In this document: positions 41,371 through 63,385 of the stretch, one piece after another
Layout of the letters: each line of letters begins with the position of its first letter
Numbering within the stretch: position 1 is the stretch's first letter
Source: Bullera alba
Taxonomy: Eukaryota > Basidiomycota > Tremellomycetes > Tremellales > Bulleraceae
NCBI GenBank assembly: GCA_001600095.1
Contig: BCIX01000001.1
Coordinates: forward strand, 1,240,001 to 1,304,000
DNA length: 64,000 nucleotides
Reading direction: 5' to 3'
Translations under genes and position numbers: made by a program
The notes under the pieces: model-generated
What the model saw: the letters and a program-made list of their open reading frames with translations, nothing else
Database searches by the model: none
Told to the model about the DNA's origin: nothing

Positions 41371-44263
41371 ATGTCGAACTCCTCACAAAGCTCAACCACA
41401 CTTGCACCTCCCGGTACAGCGACTACATTGGCGCCATTGACTCCCTCGCGAAGGAGCTCTCGGCCCAGGTCATCCCCAGGCCATTTCATGGCGGCTGGTT
41501 TCACCATACAGTCGCCATCATGTCCGATTACGCAGACCATCGATACGACAGACGTCGACAATTTCCAAAAGGAACGTGAGGCGGCCCTCGCTCAGCAGGC
41601 TGGCGCGAGGCTTCCGCAGAAGAGGAAACACGTCACGGTAGGTCATGGTCTTGATGAACCAAAGCATTGCTGATCATCGCTACCAGGCTCCCCCCTCCTC
41701 TCCTACCCCTTCTGCCCGGTCGCACACAACCGCACCCCCGAAAGCAAAGAGAGTCCGAACTGCAAAGCAAGCTCCACGGCCCAAAGCCTCCGGTGGGCGA
41801 TCAGCCAGGAAGGAAACTGCTTCCCAGGATGAGACACCTCAGTCGATCCTGGGCGAAGAAACCGACGTCGGGAGCTCGGAGAAGAATGATTCAGATGCCG
41901 AAGATGAGACCCGATCCACCTCGAAACGCCAACGCGATCTTCGCAAGAACTCCAGCGATTGCGAATTGTACTTCAAGTTCCTTGAGTACACTGAGACCAA
42001 AGAGGGGAAAAAATTAGAAAGGCTCTCTTGTCTGCACTGCGAGTAAGTCATTCCTCAGATTAGCCCGGCTCCCCGCTGACGAATACCTAGGAGCCCAATC
42101 GGAAAGCATAGTACCACCTCCCTCAAAAACCATCGAAAAAAATGCCCGGGATTGGCAGAAGCCTGGAAGAACAGGGCTCCTGGAGCCATCCCACCTAAAG
42201 GCTGCGAGGACGTTATCCGACAGGCGCCCGAGAAGAAGGTCTTTCACCGTTTCTGGGTCGACTTCCTAATCAAGAATGGACTCCCTTTCGCTCTCTCCGA
42301 CGATCCCCTACTTCAGCAGATGATCCGGTATCTGGATCCGACCATCGATCCACCCTGTCGTGACACCGCTGCCAAACTGGCCAACAAGCGCTACCTGGAG
42401 GGGCTTGACATACTCAAGAAGCTCATCAGCAAGCTGACAACGCCGGTTGGTTGGTCTACCGATGCCTGGACCTCGGCCGACATGGCGAACTCGTACCTCG
42501 GCATTATCGTCTCCCTGGTGGACTCTGAGTTCCATTACCACGAGTACCTTCTGGACTTCTCTCCGATCAGCGGGTCCCACACCGGCAGGCACATGGCCGA
42601 ATTTCTGGCAGAGAAACTCCGGTCTCTTCTCGATGTCACGCTCATCGGTCCTCCCACATCCGACAACGCGAGTAACAACAAGGCTGCATTCGAGAAGCTT
42701 GACGATATCATTGGTGACGATGACTACACTTTCCAATCGATCTCTGGGCGATGGCATCGTTGTGTCAATCACGTCTTTGCTCTAATAGTCAAGGACTACC
42801 TTGCTGCCATCAACAATCTTTCCCCCGAACAACTCCTCGCTTTGACATACGGCTCAAACACTGCCGGTATCGCCTTTCACATTCAGTCCGACCCCTCCGA
42901 TCAGCCCACTCCGCCTGGTACTCCTGGTGATATCAGCTCGGCTGTCCCTCCCCCCAATCTCCAGTCGGATGTCACCGATCCTGTCAACAACGCCACGCCT
43001 CTTGATGTCATAGACCATATCGACGAGGACTGGGTACGTCTACTCCAAGACATCGAACCCTCAGAAACGCAGGACATCGACGAGGAGGAGGACAATGACT
43101 TAGGCCTGTTAGCCAGTGAGAAGAATGACCTAGGCCTGTCAGCGAGGGAGAAGAGGGCTAGCTTGAAGCAGAAAAGGAAGGACCTCGCCGCCCGGAATAA
43201 GGTCCTTCGAGCTCTGAAGACCTCGCAATCCCCTGTTGGTCTCTTGAGGCGGATCGTGGTTCACATTCGAAGCTCGTCAGTACGCCAGGACATCTTTTAC
43301 AGGCAGTGCATCGCCCTTGGACTCAAGCCGCTCAAGCCCAGTATGGACGTTCCAACTCGATGGAATTCCACCCTCGCCATGATCTTGCGAGCTCTTGACA
43401 TCGAGAAAGCGATCGATGCCTATTGCGCTTTGAAGCAGAAGGACGGATGCCCGGAACTCTCGCAATCGGACTGGAACACACTCCGGTCGATCAAGGAGCT
43501 TCTCAATGTCTTCGGGGAGTTGACCGACAAGTACTCCAAGCGCGAACCCCTCCTCCAGGAAGTCCTGTACGACTACATGACGGTTCGTTCCAAGCTGAAG
43601 ACGCAGAAAGCTCTGGTCGACGGGTTCGAGTGGTCTTTGGCAATGGATGGGGTGATGGCCAAGATCACCAAGTACATCGATCTGGCAATGGCAAATGACT
43701 ACGTCATCATGGCTACAGGTGAGTTCCCCTTTGCCTCCCTTTGCAAGCCGAATGCTGATTGTACAGCTCTCAACCCGAGATTTGGTCTCGTATTCGCCGA
43801 GAGGATGATAAGCCGCGCTGGACACGCAGATCGGGCAAGCGCTCTACGCGACATTATACGCAAGGAGTTGGATCGAATCGCGCCGCCCCCCGTTGTGGAA
43901 GCCAGTACGACCTCAAACTCCGACCTCGACCCCAACGACGAGATGGCACAATTCGTACTACCAGAGAGCATCGACTTGCCCGAAGACGAGATCGAGACGT
44001 ACATCAGCATTTCGAAAGCCGGTCGCCCCAAAGATTCGATCCTCAGCTTCTGGCGACGCCAGTCCCTCACCCTTCCCCGCTTGTCTTTGCTCGCTCGCCA
44101 TGTTCTCTCGGTCCAAGCGACTTCGACTAGCGTGGAGCGTCTGTTCTCCGGAGCGAGCAGAGTGGCCACAATCAATCGCCCGAATCTGCGTCCCGAGACT
44201 ATCAAGAAACTGGTTTCCACGATGGAATGGATGAAATGCGGAATCCTGGACGCTGGAGCATGA
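41371..44263 (+). CDS. hAT-family transposase with BED zinc finger
   Basis: Exons 41371-41637, 41687-42042, 42091-43718 and 43767-44263 give 915 residues without an internal stop. An Ala/Ser/Thr/Pro-rich N-terminus precedes a BED-like finger, C-x2-C (SCLHCESPIGKH) with LKNHRKKC, split by an intron. The catalytic RNase H-like domain shows GWSTDAWTSADM (first acidic), TSDNASNNKAAFEKL (second acidic), WHRCVNHVFALIV and DVPTRWNSTLAM. The C-terminal dimerisation region reads LSLLARHVLSVQATSTSVERLFSG. The last intron (43719-43766) is 48 nt, a multiple of three with no stop, so retention would give an in-frame longer protein; splicing gives the family-like MATALNPRFGL. Confidence 0.95.
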
Positions 44264-53252: not shown

Positions 53253-55759
53253 TCACTCCTTCTGTATTACCAGCCTACTTTCCGTCTCCACCACATTCTC
53301 CTTCCCCACCCACTCATGCAGCCACCTGAAAACCTCGTGCTGCGGTCCGTTAGTTCCGACCGGCTCCCCCAGATGATCGAACTCACATGCCACTTTATTG
53401 AGTTTTGGGGTTTCAACACCCAGTGATTCTCATCGGGGAAGTACAGGAATCGACTTGGGACTCCTTGCCTGATAGGATATCAGTCACTGCCATTCGAAGC
53501 CATCGAGGATGTACTTACACTTGCAAAGCTGTGAAAGCGGCTAAGGACGATCAGGTCAGTCCACACGTGTACTCCGTTCATAAGTGGTGAGTGCTTACCA
53601 ATTCCTTCGCCATCCACCAACCGGAAGTCTGACCGGTGTCAGTCAATCCGCAGATTGTGTCTGTGATGTGCCAAACTCACCTTTACCACTATGGATGACC
53701 AGCTCGGGGGTCTTCCACTCGCTGACATGGTTCATCGGGTTCCACTTTTCATATGTCAATCGAGACTCTGTGGGATCTCCCCCGAATTCACTGCGGTCTA
53801 CGTCAGCCCTAGCCGTATCAGAAGATCAGAAGCGACATACCGCCCTGCGAACCACAGCTCCTCGGTGGTGTAGAACCCATTGATAGTGTTGAAGATACCG
53901 TCGTGGCAAACGATAGCCTTGAAACCAAATTGATCGTTGTGGCCTTGGATCCAGTTCGCCATGTAACCTCCATACGAAGCGCCCAGCATAGCCGTCCTCT
54001 CCGGGTCGATCTCGGGGTACTGCTCCAAAACGAGGTGGTAACCCGCTAGGAGATCCTTGAATGGTGCGCCTCCCCAGTTTAGCCCGATCTTGTCGCAAAA
54101 CTCCTGTCCGTACCCCGTAGACCCGGTAGGGTTGATGGCAACAACAAAGTATCCCTGAGATGCGAAGAGAGCTGGGTTCCACCGAGTAGACCAGTTGTCC
54201 TCCCAAGAGCCCTGTGGTCCACCATGGACCAAGAACGCCAAGGGCCATTTCTTCTTGTCGCCTTCTTTCCAACCCCTAGGCTTGATAGCCCAGCCCATGA
54301 CATCCCACTCGTCCGCTCCCTTGAACCAGAACTCCTCACCGGTCTGTTCGTCCAGTCGACCATCAAGGTGTTTCTCGGACCAGTTGGTGATCTTCTCGAG
54401 CGATTTGTGAGGGAGTTTATCGTTGTCTTTGAGCTCGTCGGATAGAGTCAGGATGTACGCGTCCTGAGGGGAAGTGAAGGAAGACTTGGAGATGAGCAGA
54501 GTGTTTTTGCTCAAAGGCTGAATGGACGATGTGGACCCGTTAAAGTCGAGAGGAGTCGGAAGGTGGTTTGGATGAGTGAGATGGTAAGGGAGGATTCGAC
54601 CGTGATGTTCCGCTGTGAAGTACAGTGAGTCAGAATCGAGTGCCCAAGTCAAGCTACTCGGGCTTCTATCCCATTTCTCGGTCCAGGTCACCGTCTTGCC
54701 GGACTTCACGTCATACACCTTGACCACATTTCGATCCGCTTCATAGCCGTCTTCCGCCATCTCGAGCCAAGCCAGCTTTTTTCCATCGGGTGAGAAAACG
54801 ACAGAGCTGATGGCGCCGTGGTGATGAGGTGTGATGTGTTTGGGCGACGAGCGAGAAGTTGTGGACATGAGGTAAATGTCTAATCGAGTGTGTCTCGCCA
54901 CGTCCAAATGAGGCGCTTTGACGGAGAAAGCGATGTGGGACGACGATACGGACACTGAGCCCATTGGGTCCATCTGGGAGTAGAGGCCGGTGTCGTTGAG
55001 GATGTTTCTGAACTCTGGTTGGCTATTGATGTCGTACTTGTCGCCAGACTTGGCGAGCTTGACGGTGCCTACTGTATAGGCTTTACCGGGAGTCCTCCAT
55101 GTGTCCCAGTGCCTACTGTTAGCTCCCCCCTTGCATATGCAGCTCACCTGAGGAACAGCTCGTCGAACACGACTCCTGTCGTACCCCTGCCTTCATAAGA
55201 TTCGTCCCACTTATGTACATTGTCGAAACTTCCGTCCCCCCAAACCTGTCCGGAGAAGGCAAGGATTCCGCTATCCGCGTTGTAGGTGATTCCATCTGGG
55301 TTGATTCCCTTGGGGAAGTTCAGGATGACCTTGGATTCCGACAGTGTCACACTGTCACCCTTTGAGTTGACTGGCAGGGCGTAGAGCTCGGTGCCATTCA
55401 GATACGCCAGTGTTGCGTCACCTAGCCAGAGAAAGCTCCCTGCAGCCCCTGGTGCCGAATCGAATAGATGTCGCGTTTGGGTTTTGCCCGACGATGCTAG
55501 CTTGAGCAGATATACAGATCGCGTCATTCTATGAGTCCATTGAGTGAGCTTCGCCCTGAACTGCCGACGAGGGTACACCTTACTTGTCCGCTTCCGGGTC
55601 CCATCGGTCTACAGCGGAGACCGCGTAAGTTCCATTGGGATTGGCATGGGCTGGTTGAGGTCGAGGTGCAGAGACCAGGTCCTCGTGAGAGAACACTTCC
55701 GTGTCTGCTGTCACTAGCAGCGCACTGAGTGTGCCCGCAAGCGCGTATGCGAGTCTCAT
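53253..55759 (-). CDS. Dipeptidyl peptidase V, secreted S9 family serine peptidase
   Basis: About 720 residues in eight or nine exons. The N-terminus [20 protein letters not shown] is a signal peptide. A beta-propeller follows ([37 protein letters not shown]), then the hydrolase: [16 protein letters not shown] (oxyanion loop), [12 protein letters not shown], the nucleophile [11 protein letters not shown], the acid in [12 protein letters not shown] and the His in [12 protein letters not shown]. Several Asn-x-Ser/Thr sites fit a secreted glycoprotein. The family clips dipeptides from protein N-termini outside the cell. Stop at 53253 after the short end [11 protein letters not shown]. Confidence 0.94.
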
Positions 55760-60995: not shown

Positions 60996-61255
60996 GATCC
61001 GCGACAGGTCTACCTAGACTGTCTGTGGATCTGAAAGGGGATGGCGACGTCCTATGTACAGTGAGTAGTCGAAGCAGTGAAGTGGTGTAGTGGTGTAGTA
61101 TCGAAACAGATGACGTTGTCCTCCACGAAGTTGCCGAATTCCGAAACCAAGTTGACAGAATTTTGTTGATGTTTCAAGTTGAACATGACCTTCACTCATT
61201 CATGATCACTTCGTTCAAGCGGGGCCCTGGCTATCTATCACAGTCTATCCGCAGA

Positions 61256-62569
61256 ATGGCCTACTCCTCGCTCAGTCGTGAGGAGCTCATCGCGAAATTG
61301 GAGTCCCTGGAGGCAGGCCCGTCGACACCAAAGCCAGTCCCACCGCCTGGACCGAAGAAGCCGTTGAGAGCTTTCGACTTTTCCAACTACCCGACTCGAC
61401 ACATCGCCCTGCTAGTTTCGTACCATGGCTGGCCGTACTCTGGATTGGCTATACAGCCCACTGAAGACGATGCAATTCCGACGGTGGAGGGGGAGCTGCT
61501 CAAGGCTTTGGAGCGGACAAAGCTGATTGAGGAGGGAAAAGGATGGGAGGGTTGTAATTTCAGTCGATGTGGGAGGACTGATCGTGGAGTCAGTGGGCAT
61601 GGACAAGTGGTCGATCTCTGGGTCAGAACGAATAGGAAAGAAGGTGTGCTGCCGGCGGATTCATTCAGGCCAGCACCCAATCCCTTACCAGCGAAAGCCT
61701 CGCCAACGTCAACGTCTGTCGAGTACGCTTATCCTAGAGTCCTCAATAGTCTGCTGCCACCATCAATACGGATTCTCGCCTGGTCTCCTGTAGCCAGAGA
61801 GTTCAACAGTCGTTTCAGCTGCACACTGCGTCACTACAAATACGCCTTCCACCTAAAACCCGATCTCGACTTGGACCTGATGAGGCAAGGTGCCGAGACA
61901 CTACTGGGAGAGCACGACTTTCGCAACTTTTGCAAGCTGGACGGATCAAAGCAGATTGAGAATCACTCTAGAAAGGTGCTCAAGGCCTACTTTGCAGAAG
62001 ACGAGGCCTACCCCGGCATGGTAGTGTTCAACCTGGTTGGCTCCGCCTTCCTCTGGCATCAGGTCAGGCATATCATCGCCGTGCTATTTCTCCTCGGCTC
62101 AAAAGTAGAGCCGGTCAGTCTGGTCCAGGATCTGCTCGACGTGGTCAAGAATCCTACCAAACCGGCTTATCAGATGGGTCACCCCCTGCCTCTTACCTTA
62201 CACGAGTGCGGCTACGATGGAGGTTTGGACTGGCGGATGAGCACGTACGATGGGGCCACGGCGAACATGACACTAGAGGACTTGGATGTGGAGAAGAAGT
62301 GGAGGAAGAAGATGGAGCTAGAGCTGGAAAGTGTGCAACAGGAAGCAGAACTGAGAGCATGGCAATGTGGAGGCCCATTGCGACGGATGAGAGAGATCTA
62401 TGGTTCTTCGGCAGATGTCGCCCACGAAGGTCTTCTGTATCCCGTAGGAGGCGGAGAGACTGTCAATACCTCAAAGTACATCCCTGTACTGAATAGAGTC
62501 AGAGGTGAGACGCCGGACGAGGTGAATAGGAAGTATAGGGAGAAGAAGGAGGCCCGTACATTACGATAA
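61256..62569 (+). CDS. PUS3: tRNA pseudouridine synthase 3 (Deg1)
   Basis: Makes pseudouridine at positions 38 and 39 of tRNA anticodon arms. It is a single-exon gene. From ATG 61256 the protein is 437 residues, starting MAYSSLSREELIAKLESLE, the usual fungal start. The catalytic motif is CGRTDRGVSGHGQ with its Asp. Other marks are HIALLVSYHGWPYSGLAIQ, VAREFNSRFSCTLRHYKY, GEHDFRNFCKLDGS and VGSAFLWHQVRHI. Two in-frame ATGs upstream (61202 and 61169) give longer forms; the one from 61202 adds MITSFKRGPGYLSQSIRR, a basic, acid-free segment like a mitochondrial presequence. Its stop is 15 bp from the stop of the convergent U1-C gene. Confidence 0.95.
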   Translation: MAYSSLSREELIAKLESLEAGPSTPKPVPPPGPKKPLRAFDFSNYPTRHIALLVSYHGWPYSGLAIQPTEDDAIPTVEGELLKALERTKLIEEGKGWEGCNFSRCGRTDRGVSGHGQVVDLWVRTNRKEGVLPADSFRPAPNPLPAKASPTSTSVEYAYPRVLNSLLPPSIRILAWSPVAREFNSRFSCTLRHYKYAFHLKPDLDLDLMRQGAETLLGEHDFRNFCKLDGSKQIENHSRKVLKAYFAEDEAYPGMVVFNLVGSAFLWHQVRHIIAVLFLLGSKVEPVSLVQDLLDVVKNPTKPAYQMGHPLPLTLHECGYDGGLDWRMSTYDGATANMTLEDLDVEKKWRKKMELELESVQQEAELRAWQCGGPLRRMREIYGSSADVAHEGLLYPVGGGETVNTSKYIPVLNRVRGETPDEVNRKYREKKEARTLR

Positions 62570-62584
62570 TGCATACAACACTGT

Positions 62585-63385
62585 TCACGAGCCCAACATG
62601 CGGAGTCTGTCGGGATGGATACCAGGTGCGCCTCCGCCGGGAGGACCTTGTTGAGGCGTGAACTGAGGTGGTGGACCTTGCTGTGGGACGAATGAAGGAG
62701 GCGGTCGTGGTGCTTGGGCGTTCATGCCAGCTCCGCCTGAAGGTGGGAAGGGTGGTAGCTGACCTGCTGGAGGGAATGGCGGCATTTGTCCTCCCATGGG
62801 AGGGAATGGTGGTCCACCTGGAGGTCCCTGGTAGCCGCCTGGCTGGAACGGTGGTCTGAATGGTGGTGGGCCGCCTTGGGGTGGGCCGCTGTATCCCTGC
62901 GATGGGAAAGGAGGTTGAAAGCCTATACGTGGGTCAGTTCTGTACCTCAGTTCCCAATTACCCACCTCCTGGCCCGGGCATTGGGTTCATGAATCCAGCT
63001 CCTATCCTCATACTGGGCGCTGCCATCATCTGCTGCCTTCCTCCTCCTTCATGATTCGAGATAATAGCGTCGATGATGTTCTGGGCCTTGTCGTGGCCTA
63101 ACGATGCAAAGTAATCCCGGACGTTGGCAATGTGATTCCGACCAGTGTTGTGGGCCTTTCGGGCACTCATAGAGTCGTGGGTGCTACATTGGTCAGTCCC
63201 CGCCAGTTACTCCGATCACAGGCATTTCTTACAGATAACTAAGCAGGTGATCAGCTCAACTCAGTGACTTTGTCTGCAGTCACTCACATATCGCAATAAG
63301 TAGAGGATCAATCCAAAAAGGCGAATGTCAGCATCAGAACGCGTTAAGAGCAGGAATGTACTTATTCGCAGTAGTATTTCCCCAT
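62585..63385 (-). CDS. YHC1: U1 small nuclear ribonucleoprotein C
   Basis: U1-C stabilises pairing of U1 snRNA with the 5' splice site. Exons on the minus strand are 63366-63385 (20 nt), 63288-63299 (12 nt), 63233-63238 (6 nt), 62966-63183 and 62585-62922, summing to 594 nt and 197 residues. The joined start MGKYYCDYCDIYLTHDS is the invariant zinc-finger opening of U1-C (C-x2-C, with His further on in [12 protein letters not shown]), followed by [21 protein letters not shown], then Met/Gly and Pro/Gly-rich repeats. To reach this sequence the first intron (63300-63365) must be AT-AC: ATAAGT at the 5' end, CTCTAC at the 3' end. The other introns are GT-AG. Confidence 0.93.
63233..63238 (-). other. 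6-nt microexon of the U1-C gene
   Basis: TTATCT on the minus strand, preceded by TGCTTAG and followed by GTAAGA. It splits an Ile and a Leu codon and supplies Tyr. Without it the family-invariant YL in CDxYLTHDS is lost although the frame is kept. Confidence 0.82.
63300..63365 (-). other. AT-AC intron in the U1-C gene
   Basis: 66 nt. Starts ATAAGT and ends CTCTAC. A CTGAC branch-like site and a T-rich stretch (CCTTTTTGG) lie before the end. The 5' end matches the ordinary GTAAGT consensus except for G to A, so it looks like a U2-type AT-AC intron rather than a U12 one. No GT-AG alternative keeps the frame: the only nearby GT lies after an in-frame TAA. Confidence 0.8.

Follow-up and report, generated by a model that had tools for sequence, protein, structure and literature searches.

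The first intron of a U1-C gene in Bullera alba appears to begin with AT and to end with AC, which raises two questions: is this a genuine spliceosomal intron, and does its position in the gene of a U1 protein carry any meaning? The window that we analysed, a stretch of 64,000 nucleotides, contains on its minus strand (62585-63385) an intact U1-C gene of 197 residues in five coding exons (20, 12, 6, 218 and 338 nt). On the sequence evidence set out below, we give a probability of about 0.85 to the reading that the first intron of this gene, the only U1-C gene found, is genuine and belongs to the U2-type AT-AC class (AT-AC type II) of spliceosomal introns.

Layout of the U1-C gene

The spliced protein matches the Pfam zf-U1 model at residues 1-38, over all 38 model positions (3.8e-20), so that the finger is N-terminal, and among the chains of solved structures it matches the U1-C chain 2vrd (1e-15). 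Among the matches listed from a collection of 5.8 billion proteins, the best with a name come from Kwoniella, Cryptococcus, Kockovaella and Cutaneotrichosporon. Searched with the zf-U1 model and, separately, with the protein itself, the genome of 19.4 Mb and 7 contigs yielded this single place in each case; no second U1-C copy was found genome-wide by a search that could miss a copy with other intron splits. The features of the gene are:

63366..63385, minus strand: exon 1, coding part of 20 nt, MGKYYC and two bases of the D codon; the N-terminus agrees with relatives
63300..63365, minus strand: intron 1, 66 nt, AT-AC (ATAAGT...CTAC); the sole register that gives MGKYYCDYCD, with no internal AG acceptor
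63360..63365, minus strand: AT-AC donor ATAAGT of intron 1, placed by join enumeration and assessed by U1 pairing energy
63327..63331, minus strand: candidate branch site CTGAC, 28 nt from the 3' end, an outlier distance for this genome
63307..63311, minus strand: alternative candidate branch site TTGAT, 8 nt from the 3' end, at a usual distance with a weaker motif
63300..63302, minus strand: acceptor TAC of intron 1; its AC is the first one 3' of the CTGAC motif
63288..63299, minus strand: exon 2, a micro-exon of 12 nt, TTATTGCGATAT; completes D, then Y, C, D and two bases of I
63239..63287, minus strand: intron 2, 49 nt, GTGAGT...TTAG, in agreement with the intron consensus of the genome
63233..63238, minus strand: exon 3, a micro-exon of 6 nt, TTATCT; completes I, then Y and two bases of L
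63184..63232, minus strand: intron 3, 49 nt, GTAAGA...GTAG; its position is also suggested by read-through in the homologue P0020
62966..63183, minus strand: exon 4, 218 nt, the remainder of the zinc finger, from the zf-U1 match
62923..62965, minus strand: intron 4, 43 nt, GTGGGT...ATAG, from join enumeration
62585..62922, minus strand: exon 5, a proline/glycine-rich tail to the stop; its C-terminal end resembles relatives

The two micro-exons, of 12 and 6 nt in succession (63233-63299, minus strand), divide the YCDIYL codons of U1-C, and gene finders would probably miss both of them. An Rfam scan of the 64-kb window returned 0 matches, a search of viral contigs for relatives found none, and the RNA fold of 63280-63385 has a z of -0.24.

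A single register of the first join

Intron 1 lies between ATGGGGAAATACTACTGCGA and TTATTGCGATAT; it spans 66 nt and runs from 63365 to 63300 on the minus strand. To define this join we held the later exons fixed, let the donor lie 12-119 nt from the ATG and the acceptor up to 200 nt away, and kept every join that rebuilds a U1-C-like start. Seven joins do so, all excising 66 nt and each slid by one base. Not one of the seven registers has GT...AG ends, and GC-AG or AT-AC ends occur in none of the six registers other than ATAAGT...CTAC. The identity of residue 7 separates the registers further: it is D in the AT-AC register alone, while the other six give T, T, A, E, E and E. The initial annotation had described a 66-nt intron ATAAGT...CTAC as the only join giving MGKYYCDYCD, and with D in one register of seven this description stands. 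A GT-AG reading of intron 1 was rejected: the sole AG within the intron lies at positions 4-5, so that an AG acceptor before exon 2 is impossible, and no GT-AG join rebuilds U1-C.

Intron 1 departs from a canonical intron at its first and last base only, in keeping with the earlier remark that both ends deviate together. From the base frequencies in 264 kb of the genome (the 64-kb window plus 20 further stretches), the chance of meeting ATAAGT with YAC in any of the seven registers is ~1e-5. Retention of intron 1 would end translation after seven codons (MGKYYCE-stop), with the stop at codon 8.

The N-terminus in homologues and relatives

We compared this N-terminus with those of the best 120 of 229 homologues. 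Within this best 120, 84 carry the full motif at the start, and residue 7 is D in all 84. The other 36 comprise 10 with CDYCD further in or lacking the start, 18 that begin downstream at MNARK or MSARK, 6 with other faulty starts, and 2 (P0011 and P0111) in which the first Cys is followed by E and the family sequence is then lost. CEYC is found in none of these 36 homologues lacking the start motif, again within the best 120 of 229.

Two of the homologues are instructive at the level of introns. The sequence of P0011, from Cutaneotrichosporon oleaginosum, is MGKYYCEYVSKHYLTHDS: such a peptide is expected from reading into an intron that starts GA/GTAYGT or right after the tyrosine codon, and it therefore fits an ordinary donor, although the locus may instead have an AT donor. 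P0020 contains MGKYYCDYCDIYL uninterrupted and then reads into an apparent intron 3, a pattern suggesting a gene that lacks introns 1 and 2.

We also grouped 23 named relatives, by recognised names rather than by a taxonomy look-up. Among the matches listed, 18 of these 23 have a complete annotated N-terminus and 5 have faulty starts, for which the micro-exons alone could be the cause. Gene finders seldom achieve a complete annotated N-terminus across an AT-AC intron, and the 18 complete N-termini hint that the introns are ordinary or absent in those relatives. Taken together with P0020, apparently without introns 1 and 2, they make the AT-AC form of intron 1 look local, and it is probably neutral.

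Donor and branch site compared with introns of this genome

To place the signals of intron 1 in context, we drew a sample of candidate introns from the same 264 kb, filtered for GT-AG ends and coding flanks; the filter also imposed a donor of the GTRNG type and CTRAY as branch site. In the strict set (n = 51, median length 51), GTGAGT is the donor in 26 introns, CTGAC occurs in 31 and CTGAT in 14, and the branch A lies 9-17 nt from the 3' end (5th-95th percentile); 4 of the 51 share with the AT-AC donor an AAGT at +3 to +6. A loose set contains 159 introns, of which a fifth or more may be chance, because eleven other terminal pairs yield 11 to 48 under the same filter; 21 of the 159 are 66 nt or longer.

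Intron 1 offers two branch candidates: CTGAC, a perfect motif at 28 nt from the 3' end, and TTGAT, which is off CTRAY at its first base and lies at 8 nt. The loose set admitted distances up to ~56 nt; none of its 159 introns reaches 28 nt, and 9 lie at 8 nt or less. The choice of CTGAC as branch site in the initial annotation is doubtful at a distance that no sampled intron shows, and TTGAT appears as likely as CTGAC to serve as the branch site of intron 1.

The donor of intron 1 forms six pairs with the standard U1 5' end, with a predicted energy of -3.9 kcal/mol against a sample median of -7.1; the standard U1 5' end is an assumption here and may not match the U1 of Bullera alba. This calculation supports the earlier premise of a weak donor: it is predicted to be weaker than 156 of the 159 sampled donors, with 3 weaker still, and a G at +1 would bring it to -7.0 kcal/mol. 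The donor of U1-C intron 3 is almost as weak, at -4.3 kcal/mol. For the reading of intron 1 as a U2-type AT-AC intron, its weak donor and less than ideal branch-site geometry count as points against. Neither the Rfam model nor two patterns for the 5' end found a U1 snRNA gene genome-wide; one of these patterns matched 5 places, none of which resembles a U1 gene by eye. Either the U1 snRNA has diverged in this genome or the tools missed it.

Search for further AT-AC introns

Over the whole genome, the pattern GTRAGT..CTGAY..YAG occurs 8,687 times, against 395 in the reversed control. The corresponding AT-AC pattern, ATRAGT..CTGAY..YAC, occurs 167 times against 213, and a mock donor, TTRAGT..CTGAY..YAC, occurs 133 times against 180. 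Because the AT-AC counts behave like those of the mock pair, no AT-AC class is visible in this genome. These counts demand a branch site near the intron end and so cannot include the U1-C intron, whose CTGAC is too far away; isolated AT-AC introns elsewhere in the genome are possible and compatible with the counts. In the 264 kb, a strict threshold left 3 AT-AC candidates, as compared with 4 for TT-AC and 6 for CT-AC.

A narrow pattern that does include the U1-C intron (ATAAGT-N22-52-CTGAC-N10-40-CTAC) gave 16 rows with 14 starts, against 47 in the reversed control. Among the 13 other starts, 7 have flank stops in every frame, 4 are open with a coding score of 0.9 or lower, and the remaining 2 (L037 and L040) are by eye ordinary introns of the form ATAA/GT...CTACAG. 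The U1-C intron itself (L030) fails the flank test because of its micro-exon, and the test therefore misses such cases. A genome-wide AT-AC class was rejected, the counts lying below those of the reversed controls and the 13 other narrow-pattern starts unconvincing.

Relation to known AT-AC introns

Intron 1 of U1-C appears to be a well supported new case among U2-type AT-AC introns. Intron 21 of human SCN4A is an AT-AC intron reported to require the major spliceosome (PMC2831892), and it shares with the present intron the AT...AC ends, a U2-like donor, the lack of a U12 branch site, and first and last bases changed together. The U1-C case differs in that the gene is fungal and encodes a core U1 protein, while the intron is 66 nt long, lies beside two micro-exons, and is described at the level of sequence. 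In Arabidopsis, an AT-AC reporter is described as handled by the major spliceosome and as responding to U1 components in both directions.

In fungi, the published figures disagree. Yeast, which is without a minor spliceosome, can use AT-AC: in a mutated standard intron this pair is reported to come second to GT-AG (PMC6726248). Of ~92,000 junctions in Ganoderma lingzhi, a basidiomycete, 13 (0.014%) are given as AT-AC, one of them Sanger-confirmed (PMC11590231). One survey describes AT-AC as rarer in fungi than in animals and plants (PMC7072748), and an RNA-seq study of fungal pathogens gives 0.09-5.19%. S. cerevisiae SUT635 and RPL30 and the Ganoderma lingzhi junctions resemble the U1-C intron as fungal uses of AT-AC. 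However, use in SUT635 and RPL30 is alternative or non-coding, whereas no productive mRNA can arise from the only U1-C gene found unless intron 1 is removed. Further sources for the splicing background are PMC13149111, PMC6176087, PMC3584512, PMC6259924, PMC4383343, PMC5873924 and PMC3798272. Among the listed titles and abstract openings from the open literature, we found no earlier report of a U1-C gene with an AT-AC intron. Such introns are easily overlooked by gene finders, and in the present case the start of a core splicing gene would be hidden.

Does intron 1 report on U1-C?

The AT-AC donor breaks the +1 pair next to which U1-C sits, and it does so in U1-C's own gene. With this pair broken and the gene being that of U1-C, the intron provides a natural test of the weight that U1-C carries at mismatched donors, whether or not regulation is involved. 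A regulatory role would go further: U1-C would stabilise some mismatched donors, so that the extent to which this +1-mismatched intron is removed would track the amount of U1-C (or of intact U1 snRNP); retained, the intron would bring a premature stop, and U1-C would thereby control its own mRNA. The weakness predicted for the donor and the immediate stop upon retention fit this proposal, as do several published observations. Human U1-C is described as making no base-specific contact and as improving the relative binding of several mismatched donors, +1C included, with +1A outside the tested set; U1C in HeLa cells is reported to take part in a feedback loop with U1-70K via weak donors; and splicing of the Arabidopsis U2-type AT-AC reporter is reported to go up in prp39a and down in rbm25, both mutants in U1 components.

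The direction of the loop, however, speaks against regulation. If more U1-C yields more U1-C, the feedback is positive, hence self-reinforcing and not homeostatic; it would not steady the level of U1-C, and negative feedback is what the known loops show. Introns retained in fungal transcripts as a rule bring a stop or frameshift; in fungi one survey finds only 9.2% of GT-AG introns to be divisible by three and without a stop (PMC7072748). The complete N-termini annotated in 18 of the 23 named relatives, among the matches listed, also count against the proposal, as does the almost equally weak donor of intron 3, and in HeLa cells the level and splicing of U1C mRNA are reported as unchanged under U1-70K knock-down.

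Comparison with established loops points to further differences. Human U1C/U1-70K cross-regulation likewise involves U1 protein dosage affecting weak-donor splicing, but it is described as a negative loop whose target is U1-70K rather than the first intron of U1-C, and which uses an alternative 3' splice site together with NMD. In the autoregulation of U11-48K and U11/U12-65K, and in the minor intron of Srsf10, splicing-factor genes are similarly governed by the reaction they serve; those cases, the first two of them negative loops, are reported as experimentally shown and are tied to the minor spliceosome.

Weighing these points, we consider a U1-C-dependent regulatory intron quite unlikely, and we regard as very unlikely the idea that intron 1 is a built-in gauge of U1-C-containing U1 snRNP, acting via the +1 mismatch. 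If the gauge were real, a single non-GT intron, lying in an essential gene, would tell the cell how well it can recognise donors, and the self-reinforcing loop could give a switch-like gain or loss of U1-C. The link between the AT-AC intron and the function of U1-C is best described as an attractive coincidence.

Which spliceosome?

Could this lineage have kept a minor spliceosome that removes intron 1 as a U12-type AT-AC intron? The AT-AC ends of intron 1 would fit, and GCTCTTAAC matches 6 of the 9 bases of the U12 branch site. Moreover, one survey reports minor-spliceosome RNA genes, among fungi, in Cutaneotrichosporon oleaginosum only (PMC7072748); this species belongs to the same wider group as the host of the U1-C gene, which leaves some doubt as to whether the minor spliceosome has been lost here. 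However, the donor ATAAGT is not close to RTATCCTT: it matches the U12 donor ATATCCTT at only 3 of 8 bases and has the U2-type AAGT at +3 to +6 instead. A TCCTTAAC-like branch site near the 3' end is likewise absent. The best interior matches, at 6 of 9 bases, lie 44 nt (the branch-like stretch) and 49 nt from the end, and a third match of 6/9 is the 3' end of the intron itself, without AA. Two surveys describe no convincing U12 introns in Basidiomycota (PMC10639083; PMC2846911). Genome-wide searches detected neither U12 nor U6atac, but they lacked a working control, as U1 was also missed and U6 appeared only below the cut-off. We rejected the U12-type intron as highly unlikely, on the grounds of its 3/8 donor and the distance of the branch-like stretches, and the signals point instead to the major spliceosome, as had been proposed from the initial annotation.

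It is extremely unlikely that an assembly or base-calling error conceals an ordinary intron with the true ends GTAAGT...CTAG: a canonical intron is just two substitutions away, but two independent errors at exactly the two bases coupled in AT-AC introns would be improbable, and the assembly consists of 7 contigs. Another register of the 66-nt excision, for example TAAGTA...TCTACT with fully non-canonical ends, has next to no probability, for although three such registers likewise give an open U1-C with E at residue 7, none of the six has GT-AG, GC-AG or AT-AC ends, and E stands at this residue in 0 of the 84 motif-bearing homologues among the matches listed.

Proposed course of splicing and history

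If intron 1 is removed as a U2-type AT-AC intron, U1 would pair with positions +2 to +7 (UAAGUA) and tolerate an A.C mismatch at +1. The branch-point A, in TTGAT or in CTGAC, would then attack the first base of the intron, and in the second step the first-position A and the last-position C would replace the usual G and G. The acceptor used would be the first AC 3' of the CTGAC motif. In the predicted product, GA is joined to TTATTGCGATAT, completing the Cys-X2-Cys of the zinc finger. The simplest history would be that of a GT-AG intron altered at both ends and then trapped, without a regulatory role; U2-type AT-AC introns have been argued to be trapped because their exit needs simultaneous changes at both ends (PMC2831892).

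Neighbouring open frames in the window

A 703-codon open frame on the plus strand (42152-44263) contains an hAT transposase C-terminal dimerisation domain (4.7e-14). With 8000 candidates scored, its sole match at E 1e-30 or better is a protein of Rhizophagus irregularis, 24% identical. An open frame at 61163-62569, on the plus strand, carries a tRNA pseudouridine synthase domain (PF01416, 5e-24); it is convergent with U1-C, with 15 nt between the two stop codons. On the minus strand, the open frame at 53798-55147 carries a domain of the prolyl oligopeptidase family (PF00326, 9.6e-30).
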